64,000 nt of DNA from Desulfomonile tiedjei DSM 6799. GTDB taxonomy: Bacteria > Desulfobacterota > Desulfomonilia > Desulfomonilales > Desulfomonilaceae. The stretch lies in assembly GCF_000266945.1 (NCBI RefSeq), contig NC_018025.1, positions 5,026,001 to 5,090,000 on the forward strand, read 5' to 3'. The notes below the pieces were generated by a model, which made no database searches, was not told the DNA's origin, and saw only the letters and a program-made list of their open reading frames with translations. The translations under genes were made by a program, and so were the position numbers. The number at the start of each line of letters is the position of its first letter. The stretch's first letter is position 1. Positions 30,790 through 64,000 of the stretch are shown in pieces.

Positions 30790-31005
30790 ATATGCGCTAA
30801 CTTTGTTCCAATTCTATGTCCCAAAGGGACAGAAGAAAATAGCCCGGTAATTCATTGCCGGGAATCTGTGAATCAATCGTCCCTCCGGGACTCGAAAATC
30901 ATTATATTTTTCCGTAACCGGCGATGAATCGCCGGCCTATTGGTCCCGCGTCTCGCGGGATTCCTCCGGAACAAACGACCAAGAAACACCTAAGTTGGCG
31001 CATAT
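30790..31005. repeat. MITE-like repeat family B, copy 2 (216 bp)
   Basis: Ends are ATATGCGCTAACTT and AAGTTGGCGCATAT, inverted with one mismatch. Interior hairpins: CCCGGTAATTCATTGCCGGG, GTCCCTCCGGGAC and CCGGCGATGAATCGCCGG. It is the most complete of three copies. Confidence 0.8.
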
Positions 31006-54679: not shown

Positions 54680-55435
54680 TCAGATCACACCTGGGCGCAA
54701 AGAAACCGAATAGGTGAACAGGTCGGATCGATACAACGAACAGCCCGCCATGATGGGGCGAGCAGGAGCAGCATAAATGACCAATCTTCTTGCCAAAAGC
54801 GGGCTCCCACGCTTGATTTTCAGCACAGAGGCCTGTTCTGCCGAAGCTACAGTGGCACTTATCTGGTAGTCGGCCTTCTCTATAATCATCTTCCCCCTGC
54901 GAGCCAGTGTTATGAAAATGGGTTCTCTTACGATGTCGGCATGTTTCACGAGGCTCATAAACTCTGCTGGTAAATAACGGTCATCCAACGCCACAGGGCA
55001 ACCATCCGCGTATCGAATGCGTCTGATATAGAAAACGGGTGTTCCTGCCGGCAGCCCAAGGTCGGATAGCCATTGTTCGGAACAGACTTTGGTCTCGTAG
55101 GCTGCGACTACAACTTCAATTTGCTTGCTCTGGAGAGTCCATTCTTCGATGAAGGTCTCTATTTGGTCGAGCTGTCCGCTGATCCGACGGGGAGTTATGA
55201 ATGTTCCGACCCCTCTCACTCTGTACAGGTGCCCTTCATTAACGAGGTCTCTCACTGCTTGTCGCACGGTTAATCGACTTACGCCGAATATCCGGGTAAG
55301 TGCTTCTTCGGGCAATAATTTGAGTTGCTCTTTGTTGCCGCCTTGTTCCCTTTTTTCATCGATAAAGCGCAGCAGTTGATCCTTGATTTGACTGTGCAAG
55401 GGCAACGCAGAGTTTCTGTCGATGCTTTTGAGCAC
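54680..55435 (-). CDS. GntR-family regulator with UTRA ligand domain
   Basis: The 251-aa protein uses a GTG start (55435) after GAGGAGAG. The N-terminal winged helix-turn-helix (about 1-80) has LPEEALTRIFGVSRLTVRQA and GVGTFITP; the C-terminal UTRA domain (about 100-245) has VFYIRRIRYADGCPVALDDR and LYRSDLFTYSVSLRP. The family senses small molecules and represses nearby genes. It is downstream of grdD in the same direction, 673 bases away, and could control the glycine reductase genes; this is inference from position only. Confidence 0.92.
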   Translation of the reverse strand: MLKSIDRNSALPLHSQIKDQLLRFIDEKREQGGNKEQLKLLPEEALTRIFGVSRLTVRQAVRDLVNEGHLYRVRGVGTFITPRRISGQLDQIETFIEEWTLQSKQIEVVVAAYETKVCSEQWLSDLGLPAGTPVFYIRRIRYADGCPVALDDRYLPAEFMSLVKHADIVREPIFITLARRGKMIIEKADYQISATVASAEQASVLKIKRGSPLLARRLVIYAAPARPIMAGCSLYRSDLFTYSVSLRPGVI

Positions 55436-56108: not shown

Positions 56109-57257
56109 CTAAAGCGTTAGCATGCTGTTCTTTTGCAGGACATCCAGCGCAAGAGGCCTGTCCTCGAGTGCCACCAGAATGACCGGCCCCACGCAGCCCA
56201 TACCGGTCTCAGCGTAAATTCCCCTTGAACGCAGGAGTTCCTGAGCCGATTCCAGGAGCAGGACGTCGATGCCGGCGATCTGTTCGGTGACCACCTTTTT
56301 CTCGGGAGCCGGCGCCTGAGGAGCAGTGGCTCGCTTCCGCGTCTTGCACAGTGTGCTCAATCCTGCTCGGTGGGCCCGCTGCCACTCCTCGCGAAAGACT
56401 TCCGTGACCTTTCCCCTGACCATAGCGGCCGCGTAAGAGATCGAACCGGCTATTACCGGTGCTCCCGAAGCACGTGAGATGATGTGGATGATGCGTTGAT
56501 AACGTTCTCCTATGCCCGGACCATATCCCCAGCCAACGGATTCGTAGCCGCCTCCCGTGGTAAACGCAGAAAAGAGTTTGGTTAGCAGGTTTCCGGTAAG
56601 GCTATCGCAGACCATGACATCCGGGGTTCCTCGCAAAAGATCGTTCCCACGCATGACCACGTCCCGATCGGACCGCCCTGAAACGGCCAGGTTGATACAG
56701 TAGCCGTTGGCCTGGAGTTCACGGAGTATGCGTTCCACCGGTCTGGCTCCGTCGATGTTGAGTACTCCTACGGAGGGGTTGGCGATGCCGTAAGCCTTGG
56801 CGACACTAATGCCGTACAAAGCGTTGTAGGCCATGCCCTGGACTCTTTCAGCGGAAGACATGCCTGTGGTGCAGGCTATAAACATGGGCCTTCCCAGGCC
56901 TGGAGTACTTACAAGACCTACGGTAGCCACACCAAGGGGAAAGGGATAGTGCATGGTCACAGCGGCCTGGAGTTCGCCCGCATCAAGCATACGTTCCATG
57001 ACCGCATGCGCCTCTTCTTCCGTAGATGCAGGAACCGTGCGCAGGTTGGTGGCCATGTCAGCAGGTCCGATCGTCAGAACTTCTATGCCCGGTACATTCC
57101 TTTGAGCCATCTCAGCCCCCGACAGAACTTCGCTGTATCCATGTTCATTGCCGATCGCAGTGAGGCCGATCTTGATTGCCGGTTCGGAATGAGGTGCCAA
57201 CAGATGCTGAGCAGTCTCGTCCAGCACTTCAGCGATCAGATGTCTGATATCACGCAT
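56109..57257 (-). CDS. grdD: grdD: glycine reductase complex component C, alpha subunit
   Basis: The protein has 382 aa. The ATG at 57257 overlaps the grdC stop in TGATG, so the pair is translationally coupled. The fold is phosphate acetyltransferase/PlsX-like (KIGLTAIGNEHGYSE, AVTMHYPFPLGVATVGLVST, GTPDVMVCDSLTGNLLTKLF). A Cys near residue 355 in GMGCVGPVIL corresponds by position to Cys359 of the Eubacterium acidaminophilum subunit, the thiol that carries the acetyl group before acetyl phosphate is released. With GrdC it turns the acetyl thioester into acetyl phosphate, from which acetate kinase makes ATP. Confidence 0.93.
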   Translation of the reverse strand: MRDIRHLIAEVLDETAQHLLAPHSEPAIKIGLTAIGNEHGYSEVLSGAEMAQRNVPGIEVLTIGPADMATNLRTVPASTEEEAHAVMERMLDAGELQAAVTMHYPFPLGVATVGLVSTPGLGRPMFIACTTGMSSAERVQGMAYNALYGISVAKAYGIANPSVGVLNIDGARPVERILRELQANGYCINLAVSGRSDRDVVMRGNDLLRGTPDVMVCDSLTGNLLTKLFSAFTTGGGYESVGWGYGPGIGERYQRIIHIISRASGAPVIAGSISYAAAMVRGKVTEVFREEWQRAHRAGLSTLCKTRKRATAPQAPAPEKKVVTEQIAGIDVLLLESAQELLRSRGIYAETGMGCVGPVILVALEDRPLALDVLQKNSMLTL

Positions 57258-58801
57258 CACGCAGTCCCCGGATTGTTCTTGGACAAAGACATCAACATCT
57301 CGGCCAGGACCTGGCGGATGCTGTCCTTATCCAACGATGAGCTTTTGGCTGTCAGCCCGCGATTCTTCTCTACGATCAGGGACAGCCCATCGAAGAGATT
57401 CGTTATTCTCCCCAGGAACAGACTGCCCTTGCCAATGACCATCGCAGCATTCATATCGCCGGCCAGCAGGCGTTCACGAAAGAAACCGAGACAAGGAACT
57501 CCCGAGGGGATGTGTCCCTGAGTGGGAGCAAATCCTGGGAGACCATGTTTTTTAACAAATGCCGGGATGTCTTCTCTGGCAATCTCCGAAGCCATGACTG
57601 CCAGCGCGGCTATCATCCGGTAATTACTCTCGGGTACATTGCCGGCTCCGGCAGGTTCGGTAAGTTCGGGGTTCTGCATCTCCACTGAATAGCGGTCAAT
57701 GTCAGTAATTTTGAGGCCTAGCTGTGCCAGAGGGGCTGTTACAAGGGCCTGCATCACATGCTGAGGCGAAGAACCGGTCCCGATCGCATGCTTGCCGATC
57801 ACGTCCAATCGAATAACCGGGTTCACTCCATCGTTTTCGGAGATCAGCAGGGCAAAAGTTCCCAACATGTCCTCCAAGACGGGCATGCCCTTGCTCACAT
57901 GGTCTTTGCCATTCATGCCCAGCTTGGCGACCGAGCCTCCGCCAACCACCACCACATTTTTAAACACTCCTGCCTTGACCAAAGAAGCGGCGTGCAACAG
58001 AGCGTGGACAGGCCCCGCGCAAAAACCGCGCACATCGCAGCCGCTCGCATTGACCAGGCCAGTCAACTCTCCGATAGATTTGGCGAAATTGCCGCCGCCC
58101 CGTTGGTTCATGTCTCCGCAGGCCTCTTCGGAACATTCAATGATGTAGTCGACCTCGGCCGGAGGTGTGCCCGTGTTGGCCAGCAAATACAGCAAAGGAA
58201 GAAGAGACGATGCCTTGACTGTAATGTTTTCGAGCATCACGCGGGCAGACAGATTCTCGTCCGTTTCATGGGCCTGCCGCACACACCCCACAAGTTTTTG
58301 TCCCAGGTACAGGCCTTCGGCAGTGTGATTGGCCACAAGCTCTTCAATCACTCTTGAGTCTTCGCCTTTGCTCAAGCGACTCAAGTTAGCCCCTGTCAGG
58401 AGACTATGGGAGCCAAGCGACTCGAGGAGCTCCTGAGAAAAATTACGCTCCAAAACCACCAGGTCGAAGGAATCCGCAATCTTCAGGAGTCCGTACAGCT
58501 CGACTTCCGGCATGATTTCTCCATATGCCCCAAGTCGGCTTCCTCCATCAGTTGATGTTCCGACCGCAGCGTGCCAAGGTCGCTGGATAGCGTCAAGATC
58601 GAGAGGGGAAACGTTGCCGATATAGACCTGGTTCGGAGGATAAGAGACAGCGGACTCAAAATCGCGCAGATGATTCGGGAGCCTGGCAAGGTAATCCGAG
58701 TTCGGGTTCTTTTTCCGCTCTGTGCTCTGCGTTGAGCCGTAATGAAGGAGAAGGTTGGGCGCGTGAACCAGGGAATAGGCCACGCCTTTGAGGACAGCCA
58801 T
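57257..58801 (-). CDS. grdC: grdC: glycine reductase complex component C, beta subunit
   Basis: The 514-aa protein matches the known GrdC length (about 510) and has the FabH/thiolase-like pattern: a segment VDYIIECSEEACGDMNQRGG with a candidate active Cys, VRGFCAGPVHALLHA, KNVVVVGGGSVAKLGMN and FAPTQGHIPSGVPCLGF. ATG 58801 follows GAGGTAGGAAC. It receives the carboxymethyl group from selenoprotein A and forms the acetyl thioester. It is 209 bases downstream of grdA; a 92-bp repeat lies between them. Confidence 0.93.
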   Translation of the reverse strand: MAVLKGVAYSLVHAPNLLLHYGSTQSTERKKNPNSDYLARLPNHLRDFESAVSYPPNQVYIGNVSPLDLDAIQRPWHAAVGTSTDGGSRLGAYGEIMPEVELYGLLKIADSFDLVVLERNFSQELLESLGSHSLLTGANLSRLSKGEDSRVIEELVANHTAEGLYLGQKLVGCVRQAHETDENLSARVMLENITVKASSLLPLLYLLANTGTPPAEVDYIIECSEEACGDMNQRGGGNFAKSIGELTGLVNASGCDVRGFCAGPVHALLHAASLVKAGVFKNVVVVGGGSVAKLGMNGKDHVSKGMPVLEDMLGTFALLISENDGVNPVIRLDVIGKHAIGTGSSPQHVMQALVTAPLAQLGLKITDIDRYSVEMQNPELTEPAGAGNVPESNYRMIAALAVMASEIAREDIPAFVKKHGLPGFAPTQGHIPSGVPCLGFFRERLLAGDMNAAMVIGKGSLFLGRITNLFDGLSLIVEKNRGLTAKSSSLDKDSIRQVLAEMLMSLSKNNPGTA

Positions 58802-59010: not shown

Positions 59011-59472
59011 CTAGACCTGTTTCCGCATGCTGGCGACTTCAGAGGTCAATTTGGCGACGTCAGCCACCATTTCCATCATGGCCACTTGTTCCTGATACAC
59101 ATTCGGATCGAACTCGGCTTTAATCTCCTGTTCGAACACATGATACACGGGGAGTCCCAACGAGACCCCTGCCAATGAGCCTGCATAGGTCGGATCGCCG
59201 ACCGTGACCGTCTCGGCAGCCAGTCCGGCGCTACTCGGTTCGGATGCACCGAGAAGCACCACCACGTTCTCACTACCGTATCGCTCGGCCACTTCTTTGA
59301 TCTTTGCCTGATTTTGCAGGTCCATGGCACCCGCGGCCGTTCAGACGTAGCATTCCGTACTGACGAACACTACTTCACCGCCTGCGCTCATGGCGCACTC
59401 GGCAATAGCTGGGCCCGGTATGCCATCCCGGTCTCCCAGCGCAACGATCTTCTTTCCAGCCAGAATTCCCAA
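59011..59472 (-). CDS. grdA: grdA: glycine reductase selenoprotein A (in-frame TGA = selenocysteine)
   Basis: The full gene is 154 codons from a TTG start at 59472 (box GGAGAG upstream, first residues [20 protein letters not shown]) to the stop at 59011. Codon 44 (59341-59343) is TGA. The reading is [14 protein letters not shown], the known GrdA active site with Cys-x-x-Sec. The downstream part ([32 protein letters not shown]) fits GrdA. A SECIS-like hairpin follows the TGA. The selenol carries the carboxymethyl group from protein B to protein C. A truncated reading starting at 59325 would miss the active site. Confidence 0.95.
59316..59334 (-). promoter_or_regulatory. SECIS-like hairpin of grdA
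   Basis: On the mRNA GCGGGU pairs with ACCUGC (5 pairs plus one G-U) around loop GCCAUGG. It starts 6 bases after the UGA, in the position where bacterial selenocysteine insertion elements lie. Confidence 0.6.
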
Positions 59473-59921: not shown

Positions 59922-60248
59922 TTACTCCGCCAAGGCCTTAATACAGTCTTCGATTTCCTTTTGCCCGAACTCGCCGGTGAGTTCGGCTACCCTGTCTCCT
60001 GCCTTGAAAAAAAGGAACGTGGGCAGGCTCATCACCTTGAGCCGCACGGCCAGACGCCGGTTCTCTGCGCAGTTGACTTTGCAGAATTTCACCTTTCCGA
60101 GGTAACGTGCAGCGAGCTCTTCTACGATGGGCATGAGCCCAAGACAGGGCCCGCAACGCGGTCCCCAGAAATCCACCAACACGGGCAAATCGCTATCCCT
60201 AACTTCCGTGTCGAAACTGTCCTGGGTCACTTCTAACAAACCAGGCAT
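59922..60248 (-). CDS. trxA: trxA: thioredoxin of the glycine reductase cluster
   Basis: The 108-aa protein starts at ATG 60248 (MPGLLEVTQDSFDTEV) with AAAGGAGT upstream. The active site is WGPRCGPC, with Arg in place of the usual Ala or Pro-Trp context (WAxCGPC). LMPIVEELAARYLGKVKF and SLPTFLFFKAGDRV with cis-Pro are typical. It passes electrons from TrxB to GrdA selenol/disulfide. It is 23 bases downstream of trxB and part of the same transcript. Confidence 0.93.
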   Translation of the reverse strand: MPGLLEVTQDSFDTEVRDSDLPVLVDFWGPRCGPCLGLMPIVEELAARYLGKVKFCKVNCAENRRLAVRLKVMSLPTFLFFKAGDRVAELTGEFGQKEIEDCIKALAE

Positions 60249-60271: not shown

Positions 60272-61201
60272 TTAGACCTGCCAGAGGCCGGCCTCGATGT
60301 ATTTCTCGGCGTGGAAAGCAGCAATGGCTCCATCCGCCGCCGCGGTCACCACCTGACGGAGCAACTTCCGGCGGACATCCCCTACTGCGTAGACACCCTT
60401 CATGTTTGTGCACATATGTTCATCTGTCGGGATATAGCCTTCCACGTCGGTTTCGACTGTCCCGCCCAACCATTCTGAATTTGGAGTCAGGCCGACATAG
60501 ATGAACACGCCGTCTACGGGTACGACCTGAGTCTCACCACTAACCACGTTTCTTAAAAGCGTCGTTTCTACGGCACTCGAGCCTCTTATTTCTTCCACAA
60601 CCGTGTTCCACATGATCTGAAGTTTTGGATTGGCCAGCGCCCTTTCCTGTACAATGCCTGTTGCCCGCAGACTATCCCTTCGATGCACAAGCGTCACTTT
60701 GTCTGCGAACTTGGTAAGGTACACGGCCTCTTCCACGGCAGCATCTCCTCCTCCCACCACTAGGAGCGATGCCCCTTCGTAGAAGGCTGCATCGCAGGTT
60801 GCGCAGTAGGACACCCCGCGTCCTCTGAACTCCAGTTCCCCGGGGCATTGAAGTGCCTTGGGGTAGGCTCCTGATGCGATTATCACAGCGTGAGCAGCAT
60901 ATTCACACTTCTCTGTACGCAACACCCAAAGGGTTTCATTACTGAAAAGACCCTGTGCCTTGGTTGCTACTTTCTCAACTCCGAATCGTGAAGCTTGCTT
61001 TGCCATGGCTTCCGAAAGGGCCGACCCGGAGATTCCTGTAGCAAAACCGGGGTAATTCTCTATTTCATCTGTAGTGGCAGCCTGCCCCCCTACGGCAAGT
61101 TTTTCGACCAGAAGCGTTTTCAGCTTGCTCCTGCCCGCGTAGATCGCGGCAGTAAGTCCTGCAGGGCCGGCACCGACTATAATAACATCGTGTAGTGACA
61201 T
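60272..61201 (-). CDS. trxB: trxB: thioredoxin reductase of the glycine reductase cluster
   Basis: The 309-aa flavoprotein has FAD motif VGAGPAGLTAAIYA, NADPH motif VVGGGDAAVEEAVYL, redox pair CATCDAAF, and the C-terminal GVYAVGDVRRKLLRQVVTAA FAD contact. ATG 61201 follows AAGGACAAAAC. It reduces the neighbouring thioredoxin for glycine reductase. It lies 43 bases downstream of the grdB stop. GDVRRK in place of the usual GDVRTK or GDCR is a small variation. Confidence 0.94.
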   Translation of the reverse strand: MSLHDVIIVGAGPAGLTAAIYAGRSKLKTLLVEKLAVGGQAATTDEIENYPGFATGISGSALSEAMAKQASRFGVEKVATKAQGLFSNETLWVLRTEKCEYAAHAVIIASGAYPKALQCPGELEFRGRGVSYCATCDAAFYEGASLLVVGGGDAAVEEAVYLTKFADKVTLVHRRDSLRATGIVQERALANPKLQIMWNTVVEEIRGSSAVETTLLRNVVSGETQVVPVDGVFIYVGLTPNSEWLGGTVETDVEGYIPTDEHMCTNMKGVYAVGDVRRKLLRQVVTAAADGAIAAFHAEKYIEAGLWQV

Positions 61202-61244: not shown

Positions 61245-62555
61245 TTAAGAGTCCGCAGTGAAAACTCTTTGCTCGTCAATGGATGTGTGTAGAGCTGTCA
61301 AGGCTCTATCCACCAGCCTGCTTCGCAGGCTCTTCTCCTGGCCGAGACTTAGTTCAGGGTTACCTAACGGATGAGGTATGGCGTAGCCGGGCACGATGCG
61401 ATTTGCGCCTATTGCCATGGCGATGGACGTGATGGTGCACACTTGTACGGTTGGCAGTCCCGCACGTTCCAGCTCTTTCGTTATCGTTGCACCGCAACGA
61501 GTGCCCGTCCCTCAGGTACTGGTCAGGATCACCGCGTTGACCCCGGAGGCTACGAGGCGCTCGGCTATTTCTCTTCCAAACTTTCGGCTGTTTTCCAGCG
61601 ACGTGCCGTTCCCGGTTGTCGTGAAGAAGCTCGAGAACAGCGCTCCGATCTTTCCTTCTCGCTCGCATTTCCTGAGGATGTCCACGGGCAATACCCGGTC
61701 GGGATCTTGATTGGCAAAAACGCTACTGTAACCCCCGTGCACCGCTTGGAATTCTTCTCCCGAAAGGTCGTCAATGCCTTCAAGGCTATATTCGAGGTAT
61801 TTGGTAGCCCGCGCGGATTCAAGGCGATCGGGGTTTCCTTTAGGAACGATGCCGCCTTCGGTCACAAGGGCAATAGTGGCAACAGCGAGGTCTGATACGG
61901 GAGGTGCCGGGGACACCTTATCAAAGGCAGGCATTGGTAATTCCGTCACAAACGGTGCCCCATCGATCTTCGCCAACAGCATGTCTACAGCGCGGGCGGC
62001 ACCGTTCTTTTCGGTCCATGCCTCTTTTCTAATCCCTCGCGGCAGATAACCTTCCTCCTCGGGAGGGCCTATTTCTGTCCTCTTGACCAGTTTAAGCCCA
62101 AGGTCCGCCATGATTTCAACGGCCTGACGCATCCCCGCTGCTGAGGACTCGGTTCGAACGCAAAAGATGTCTCTCCCGAAGAGCTCCACTCCAGGGTTCT
62201 CGGGGTACATGCCGGTAATGGCCGGAATGTTAAGGTCCGTAGTGACTGCCTTACACACCGCGCCGCACGCGGGTCCGTACCGGCCGGCATTGAATGCAGG
62301 ACCGGCGACGACCAGGTCGGGATTAAAGGTGCGGATAAGATCGATCACTTCTCTGGTCGCCCGGTCGGACTGTTCTGCAAAGAAATTGTCGCCGCAGATG
62401 ACTGTGCCGACGATTGACGCTTCATCACCCAAGGCCGCTTCCAGTGCCTTGCCGGGCCCCAGGGAGCCCTCTCTGATTTGCGGCGGAACATCTGCTTTGT
62501 CCTCGCCGCCGATCTGCCCGAAAAATTGGTTGAGATAGTGGACTACTCTGATCAC
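61245..62555 (-). CDS. grdB: grdB: substrate-specific selenoprotein subunit of component B (in-frame TGA = selenocysteine)
   Basis: The gene has 437 codons from a GTG start (62555) behind AAAGGAGGTG to the stop at 61245. Codon 348 (61512-61514) is TGA. The reading is VILTST-U-GTGTRCGATI, matching the Sec region of GrdB, GrdF and GrdH proteins. The C-terminal part (GLPTVQVCTITSIAM, then IPHPLGNPELSLGQEKSL) is also that of the family and would be lost if the TGA were a stop. The N-terminus is RVVHYLNQFFGQIGGED. With GrdE it forms protein B, which activates glycine (or sarcosine/betaine; specificity not readable). A perfect SECIS-like stem follows the TGA. Confidence 0.95.
61485..61499 (-). promoter_or_regulatory. 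SECIS-like hairpin of grdB
   Basis: On the mRNA CGUUGC-GGU-GCAACG is a perfect 6-bp stem with a GGU loop, starting 12 bases after the UGA. A GGU loop and this distance are typical of bacterial selenocysteine insertion elements. Confidence 0.75.
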
Positions 62556-62568
62556 GTGCGCACCTCCT

Positions 62569-63849
62569 TTAGTAACCCTTGACTGTGAGGCGATAAGCCC
62601 CCAACTGGTTAGTTGCGGTGTATAGGCGTCCCAGGGCAGTAGTGAATGCGCTTTCAGGTGGACCGGATATTCCCGCGATGGAATTACCACCAACAGTACG
62701 GGTCATAGCCGGCAAAGCCACTTGAACGTCGTTATTGCCTGTTGTGACCACCGCATCCGCCTCGGGGATGCTATCGACCAAGGAAGGAAGATCGCCCTTC
62801 GGACCGGCGATCTCGTTGGCAATAATCACTGTCCTGATGCCCACTTTTTCACATTCCTTGCAAGTCAACATCAAATCCGTATCTGAGTGGCCACCGCCCT
62901 CTTGGGTGATGACGGCTCCGGAAGCGCCCAACTGCTTTCCCAGTTTCGCCGCGAATTTGGCAGACCGATCTTTTTCCCTGAGCGTGTTGTGTTCATTGGC
63001 GATGATGACGCCCAAGAACCTGAGGTCTTGTCCGTTACGACGAGCCAATTCCAGGACAACCGGGTTGTTTACGTGGAAATATGAGGGATTCTTTTGACAT
63101 GCAATAATATAGTTGCTGCTGACAATGGCCCCATCCAAAACCTCATTAGGATGGAGTACGGTTGGCAGAAGACTTCTAGCGTTTTCTCCATACACGAACG
63201 TATCGCGAAACAAGCCCTGAGATTGCAGATGGCAGATGTACACAACCCCCGGCAAGTCTTTCCCTTCAGACGTACGTGCGTCAGGGCCGTACAACTCTAT
63301 GTCATCGGGAGCCAGGTTTCGGGTCGGTTCCGCCAGATAGACAGCCGCTTCGAGCCCAGCCTTCCTTGCCGCCAGATCGAATTCCAGGTCAGTCATCTCC
63401 GGAAAGGCAGTACACTCCAGGACGATATTTATGGTACGTGAGAACTGGCTGTAGAGGGCGCCGGGACCGCTCATATCGATGATTCCTTCCTGAATGCCCG
63501 GCCTCTGCCCGGTCTGGATTACAGCCACTCCCTCCAGGACGTTCGTTTCGCCTATGCCCGCAGTCTCCATAGGGCCGAGGGCTCCCGGGAACGGAGTGGT
63601 TCCACCGGAAAGCTTGACGCGAGGCTGAATCGCATCCATGACATGGATGATTCGTGCGGTTTCGCCCGGTGAAACAATCTTGACGTCCACCTCGGAAAAA
63701 AGACCGTCTCGATTCAGGGCTGCCGTCATTTCCTGTTTATCGATCTCCAGAGCACCGTTGCTTATTCGAGTGACAGCCCCGAACATGGCACTGGTAATCT
63801 TGAACTTGCGCAACGCTAACTGCATGAAAGGAAATTCTTTTTGTTCCAT
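62569..63849 (-). CDS. grdE: grdE: component B pyruvoyl-precursor subunit
   Basis: The 426-aa protein starts at ATG 63849 (MEQKEFPFMQLALRKF) with GGAGATTTTCC. It has the GrdE pattern: GGTTPFPGALGPMETAGIGET, GEGKDLPG-like SEGKDLPGVVYICH, and the Cys in IIACQKNPSYFH. Known GrdE is cut to give a pyruvoyl group from Cys242; Cys251 here is in the equivalent place by approximate count. The final part (VTQEGGGHSDTDLMLTCKE-like, NNDVQVALPAMTRTVGGNSI) is typical. It is 13 bases upstream of grdB. The pyruvoyl group forms a Schiff base with the amine substrate. Confidence 0.92.
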   Translation of the reverse strand: MEQKEFPFMQLALRKFKITSAMFGAVTRISNGALEIDKQEMTAALNRDGLFSEVDVKIVSPGETARIIHVMDAIQPRVKLSGGTTPFPGALGPMETAGIGETNVLEGVAVIQTGQRPGIQEGIIDMSGPGALYSQFSRTINIVLECTAFPEMTDLEFDLAARKAGLEAAVYLAEPTRNLAPDDIELYGPDARTSEGKDLPGVVYICHLQSQGLFRDTFVYGENARSLLPTVLHPNEVLDGAIVSSNYIIACQKNPSYFHVNNPVVLELARRNGQDLRFLGVIIANEHNTLREKDRSAKFAAKLGKQLGASGAVITQEGGGHSDTDLMLTCKECEKVGIRTVIIANEIAGPKGDLPSLVDSIPEADAVVTTGNNDVQVALPAMTRTVGGNSIAGISGPPESAFTTALGRLYTATNQLGAYRLTVKGY

Positions 63850-63886
63850 TGGAAAATCTCCGAGACATAAACCGGGCATTTGGTGC

Positions 63887-64000
63887 TTAAACCAGTCCCA
63901 ACCAATGCCAGTAAGTGGTGCTGAAGACGACCATCAGGCCCACGGCTATCAGAACTAGAGGAACCCCTACTTTCAACATTTCGTCCGAGCTGAACGTATT
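63887..64000 (-). CDS. C-terminal end of an SLC13/DASS-like permease (cut by window edge)
   Basis: The last 37 codons of a minus-strand gene are seen; the stop is at 63887-63889. The tail DEMLKVGVPLVLIAVGLMVV ends the final membrane helix and STTYWHWLGLV is the C-terminus, as in anion symporters of the SLC13 group. It reads in the same direction as grdE and ends 37 bases upstream of it, so it may be the first gene of the glycine reductase transcript. Confidence 0.75.
   Translation of the reverse strand, partial: NTFSSDEMLKVGVPLVLIAVGLMVVFSTTYWHWLGLV

Follow-up and report, generated by a model that had tools for sequence, protein, structure and literature searches.

The locus raises two linked questions: whether an in-frame TGA near the 3' end of a grdB-type gene in Desulfomonile tiedjei DSM 6799 ends the protein or is read as selenocysteine, and which compound the enzyme would cleave. 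The window, meaning the whole 64,000-nucleotide stretch of DNA that was analyzed, covers C1:5026001-5090000 of a 6.53 Mb genome in two contigs. The features that bear on both questions, in minus-strand order, are these:

63887..64000, minus strand: 3' end of the gene for a DASS/SLC13 anion symporter of 511 aa (TIGR00785 212 bits, cut-off 198.6; PF00939 234 bits)
62569..63849, minus strand: grdE-type gene, protein B alpha subunit, 426 aa (PF09338 474.9 bits; an ATG at 63879 is also a possible start)
63109..63111, minus strand: GrdE codon 247, TAT, giving Tyr where glycine reductase has the pyruvoyl-forming Cys242
61245..62555, minus strand: grdB-type gene, predicted selenoprotein B, 436 residues, GTG start and TAA stop (61247-61245) (TIGR01918 602 bits; PF07355 538 bits)
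61512..61514, minus strand: UGA codon 348, predicted to be read as selenocysteine, in the motif ILTSTUGTGTRCGAT (UxxGxxC)
61484..61500, minus strand: SECIS-type hairpin, 7-bp stem U-CGUUGC / GCAACG-A with loop GGU, the loop beginning 18 nt past the UGA
60272..61201, minus strand: trxB, thioredoxin reductase (TIGR01292 372 bits, cut-off 343)
59922..60248, minus strand: trxA, thioredoxin of 108 aa, active site CGPC (114 bits with the clostridial TrxA profile, whose cut-off is 140)
59011..59472, minus strand: grdA, a second predicted selenoprotein gene, likely TTG start, TGA codon 44 at 59343-59341 (NF040748 260 bits, cut-off 130)
57257..58801, minus strand: grdC, protein C beta subunit (NF040746 785 bits, cut-off 450)
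56109..57260, minus strand: grdD, protein C alpha subunit (NF040747 530 bits, cut-off 350)
54680..55435, minus strand: GntR/UTRA-family regulator gene

The grdB frame from 62555 to 61245 has the TGA at 61514-61512 as its sole interruption, after which 88 sense codons precede the stop; AAGGAGG lies about 8 bases upstream of the GTG, and 13 bases separate the gene from the grdE stop, which ends at 62569. The original prediction held that grdB is a single gene with selenocysteine at codon 348 and that the frame beyond the TGA keeps the family pattern. Both statements are borne out by the TIGR01918 match, which aligns residues 3-432 with profile positions 1-430 of 431 at 602.3 bits (curated cut-off 65.45 bits), unbroken across the TGA. 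Relatives gathered by tblastn gave 41 aligned loci (30 of GrdB type, 11 PrdB-like) from Desulfobacterota, Bacillota, Pseudomonadota, Synergistota, Chloroflexota and Myxococcota, and the homologous codon is TGA in every one. Because one profile spans both sides of the codon, and because TGA is found at 41 of 41 loci, a readthrough frame arising by chance is unlikely. One additional, truncated copy has Thr at this codon, and the 6 kb read around it holds no GrdE neighbor. A search of solved structures in the PDB found no sequence relative of GrdB.

The hairpin was found exactly as predicted, a perfect stem starting 12 bases after the TGA (CGTTGC at 61499-61494, loop GGT at 61493-61491, GCAACG at 61490-61485), and an extra U-A pair (61500/61484) extends it. 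Published limits for bacterial SECIS elements are a loop of 3-9 nt with a G in the first two places, a stem of 4-16 bp, a distance of 16-37 nt from the UGA and an MFE of -7.5 or lower (PMC13188914); the grdB hairpin, with its GGU loop, 7 bp, 18 nt and -8.3 kcal/mol, lies inside them. Folding energy was nevertheless dropped as evidence, since shuffling the 33 bases gave an equally good or better fold in 829 of 2000 trials and perfect 6-bp/3-nt hairpins are common in the 64-kb window (30 observed against roughly 16 expected). By itself the stem is thus no evidence for selenocysteine, and its weight comes from conservation. Across the GrdB set, synonymous positions of the stem codons are fixed (Arg CGT 27/30 and CGC 3/30, Cys TGC 28/28, Ala GCA 27/27, Thr ACG 25/27), whereas all four Gly codons occur in the loop; PrdB-like genes have another stem sequence at an identical offset from the TGA. 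Over 36 distinct sequences 87.5% of cells are paired, both partners have changed in seven of the eight pairs, and covariation scores 0.444, a value reached in 0 of 500 shuffles; the shuffled control, which kinship inflates, gives 0.121, and a slid control that preserves kinship at most 0.087. The hairpin is conserved beyond chance. For TGA codon 44 of grdA, a single hairpin as clean as this one is not evident.

The rest of the genome supplies what decoding would need. The original prediction had named absence of the sel genes as evidence that would count against it, and profile searches find selA (599 bits), selB (404 bits) and selD (368 bits, itself containing an in-frame TGA), together with a canonical tRNA-Sec with anticodon UCA and G73 at C1:3200382. 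The hairpin would recruit SelB and Sec-tRNA(UCA), and the ribosome would then read UGA348 as selenocysteine; machinery and hairpin are observed, and the decoding itself is deduced from them. Elsewhere in the genome, C1:3748873-3749346 (L013 1225-2097, minus strand) encodes a separate PrdB-like selenoprotein of 290 residues, with TGA and hairpin at the same offset.

Two other readings of the codon can be weighed against this evidence. If the TGA were a genuine stop, or a mutation in a decaying gene, the protein would end at residue 347 and the downstream frame would be a remnant, as one might suppose from the table-11 ORF list, which ends a frame at the TGA, and from the Pfam GRDB model (PF07355, 537.6 bits), which stops at position 347, immediately ahead of the selenocysteine. 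The invariant TGA across several phyla, with downstream frame and hairpin intact, and the profile match that runs on to residue 432 leave this reading with a negligible probability. Decoding of UGA348 as Cys is suggested by a second selB-like gene (291 bits, above the cut-off) that lies 130 bases after a tRNA-Sec-shaped tRNA-Cys(GCA) with U73 (C1:3562734-3564838; L006, L003). The pair bears the marks (GCA, U73) of the selC*/selB* systems known in deltaproteobacteria, some of which have a UCA anticodon (PMC7609411). Here, however, the anticodon GCA pairs with UGC and UGU, not UGA, and the canonical tRNA-Sec(UCA) is present; the second SelB and its tRNA-Cys were dropped as the decoder, which we regard as extremely improbable. 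That UGA348 is read as selenocysteine is, on the sequence evidence, nearly certain, and is ordinary for the GrdB family, as in all known enzymes of the kind. We put at about 95% the probability that grdB is one gene for the selenocysteine-bearing protein B of the glycine/sarcosine/betaine reductase family, a figure that excludes the substrate. The expectation that standard calling would split the gene holds for plain ORF callers, since the table-11 list gives a 393-aa ORF (from an upstream TTG) ending at the TGA plus a 65-aa remnant; annotated plasmid records, by contrast, keep such genes whole across the TGA (grdF of 436 aa, grdH of 439 aa).

The gene lies in a cluster with the minus-strand order DASS symporter, grdE, grdB, trxB, trxA, grdA, grdC, grdD and GntR-type regulator, so that the reductase set (GrdABCDE plus Trx) is complete; from its position, the GntR/UTRA-family gene is possibly the regulator of the cluster. 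The symporter gene extends beyond the window (C1:5089887-5091422), and about 10 kb upstream of it lies one of two acetate kinase genes (C1:5101878-5103071 and C1:6428724-6429917), whose equal scores of 464.1 bits may reflect a recent duplication. Just upstream of the symporter gene, and in the opposite orientation, lies a DDE-superfamily transposase gene (L043 4679-6073; C1:5091678-5093072). Among 42 genomes of the class D. tiedjei alone has a GrdB gene, and this sole occurrence, with the adjoining transposase gene, suggests horizontal acquisition of the cluster. Elsewhere in the window, positions 30817-30862 (minus strand) match the Acido-Lenti-1 RNA at 38.2 bits against a gathering score of 37.

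What the enzyme acts upon is less easily read from its name. As a family name grdB is right, while glycine as the substrate finds no support in the comparison with known reductases. The glycine reductase GrdB/GrdE shares with this locus the selenocysteine in STUGTxTRCGAT, the hairpin CGTTGC-GGN-GCAACG, the GrdE partner and GrdA/C/D plus Trx. The D. tiedjei protein nevertheless scores 576.1 bits with the glycine GrdB equivalog TIGR01917, under its cut-off of 602.2 (799 and 944 bits for the two references of glycine type that were tested), its GrdE has Tyr247 in place of Cys242, its GrdB has UGTGTRC in place of the UxxCxxC described for the family (PMC13188914), and an anion symporter stands in the operon. 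In Clostridium difficile GrdE, Cys242 yields the cysteine-derived pyruvoyl group, and the peptide of aa 242-266 has been mapped (PMC9908766). The sarcosine enzyme provides the top profile for GrdB (GrdF, NF040794) and the top NCBIfam profile for GrdE (GrdG, NF040793), yet both scores fall far under the cut-offs (612.8 vs 800 and 342 vs 780 bits), and GrdG retains Cys242. The betaine enzyme GrdH/GrdI resembles this one in an alpha subunit without Cys242, but it keeps UxxC. D-proline reductase PrdB and the PrdB-like selenoproteins have selenocysteine at the homologous site and the hairpin at the identical offset, and differ in identity (only about 25-30%, over the C-terminal half) and in stem (AGUCC/GGACU).

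Maximum-likelihood trees place the pair in a branch of its own. The D. tiedjei GrdB groups with those of an uncultured deltaproteobacterium (L044), Desulfovibrio piger (L059) and genome G256 (L087) at support 99/98, and the GrdE proteins of the same four genomes group at 100/99; in both trees the glycine, sarcosine and betaine references sit together in a supported group that excludes the branch (group support 99/98 and 98/96). At the site that is Cys242 in the SGNC motif of the glycine and sarcosine enzymes, each of the four GrdE proteins carries Tyr (SxNYIIAC), and all four GrdB proteins have UGTGTRC and so lack the middle Cys of UxxCxxC. That Cys was rejected as a substrate marker among the reference enzymes, since the glycine, sarcosine and betaine types alike keep it. 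In a hand count of sampled GrdEB pairs, whose kin sequences are not independent, the two cysteines nevertheless tend to be lost jointly: UxxC is kept in 14 of 15 pairs with Cys242 against 4 of 17 without (Fisher p 8e-5). Many other GrdEB pairs (L088-L094, L022-L025, L054 and L058) lack Cys242, often also UxxC, and near some of them are TctA- or DctM-type transporter genes. G256 carries, in addition to its DASS-GrdE-GrdB unit (L087 9204-13332), a canonical pair (UxxC, Cys242; L095) on another contig; because it holds both, the two pairs presumably differ in substrate.

The branch also travels with a carrier. A DASS symporter gene stands directly ahead of grdE-grdB in three of the four genomes, the branch DASS proteins being 60-67% identical to that of D. 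tiedjei, and in D. piger a MatC/CitMHS-type carrier gene follows grdB directly. DASS transporters vary widely in substrate. Where VcINDY has its SNT motifs, the two aligned regions of the three DASS proteins are changed, identically, to PAQAANAA and SARSAA; an attempt to derive the substrate from the binding motifs therefore named no compound, and a plain C4-dicarboxylate is not indicated. Beside the D. piger cluster lie a gene with an enolase-superfamily C-terminal domain (MR_MLE_C; L059 16868-17272) and an ORF of 440 residues that matches no Pfam family (L059 15486-16808), both of which may bear on the substrate.

An ordinary glycine reductase, serving for example the reductive glycine pathway of CO2 fixation, would fit the complete GrdABCDE plus Trx set, and Sanchez-Andrea et al. 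name Desulfomonile among the genomes with that pathway through glycine reductase (PMC7547702). Against it stand the residues and the TIGR01917 score given above, the placement of both subunits outside the branch of the glycine references, the presence in G256 of a canonical pair alongside a branch pair with its own DASS gene, and a search of the D. tiedjei genome that found no second full GrdEB pair; we consider it unlikely, with perhaps a quarter of the weight. A betaine reductase of GrdH/GrdI type would explain the missing Cys242, which betaine GrdI also lacks, but the score with the GrdH profile NF040795 is 512.6 bits, short of its cut-off of 775; grdH in the Enterococcus betaine cluster stands next to a BCCT transporter gene, not an anion symporter gene; and in the trees the betaine reference falls in with the glycine references, outside the four-genome branch. 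This alternative is decidedly improbable.

The substrate is thus probably neither glycine nor sarcosine. A non-amine carboxylate is the likeliest candidate, at what we judge to be about even odds, because GrdE lacks the pyruvoyl-forming Cys and the pair travels with an anion carrier. Since the betaine enzyme also lacks Cys242, loss of that residue alone cannot exclude amine-derived substrates; the further argument comes from the anion carrier. In function, the nearest precedent is the fluoroacetate reductase FarE/FarB (farACEB) of Cloacibacillus, in which FarE is reported to lack the processing cysteines and FarB the CxxC residues (PMC10838667). It resembles the D. tiedjei unit in a dedicated transporter within the operon, and its substrate, like the one predicted here, is a non-amine acetate derivative (PMC10838667). 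The far operon, though, includes genes for an MFS antiporter and a radical SAM protein where D. tiedjei has the DASS symporter, and D. tiedjei retains the second Cys of GrdE and, in GrdB, the one at U+6; by profile its GrdE is no FarE (190.7 bits vs a cut-off of 675). A literature search for work linking Grd proteins to sulfoacetate, to chloroacetate or to an anion symporter brought up no further papers.

By analogy with the GrdB family, Sec348 would attack a bound X-CH2-COO- compound at its alpha carbon, the resulting carboxymethyl group would move to Sec44 of GrdA, TrxA/TrxB would furnish the electrons, and GrdC/GrdD would release acetyl phosphate. We tentatively propose, with a little less than even confidence, that DASS-GrdE-GrdB is a distinct branch of the glycine reductase family in sulfate reducers that imports a non-amine anionic acetate derivative (e.g. 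halo- or sulfo-acetate) and cleaves it to acetyl phosphate without a pyruvoyl group; the genome would thus be without a true glycine reductase.

The selenocysteine part of these results is routine, confirming that a member of a known selenoprotein family is correctly annotated in a genome that encodes the full selenocysteine machinery. The substrate question is less expected and is the part worth following. In similarity searches the set comes out as glycine reductase, and it may have been taken to support CO2 fixation through the reductive glycine pathway; because no other full GrdEB pair was found, the published listing of Desulfomonile rests, as far as we have seen, on this set alone, and is doubtful. 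The missing pyruvoyl Cys, the separate branch and the linked anion carrier, with fluoroacetate reductase as precedent, make a substrate other than glycine testable.
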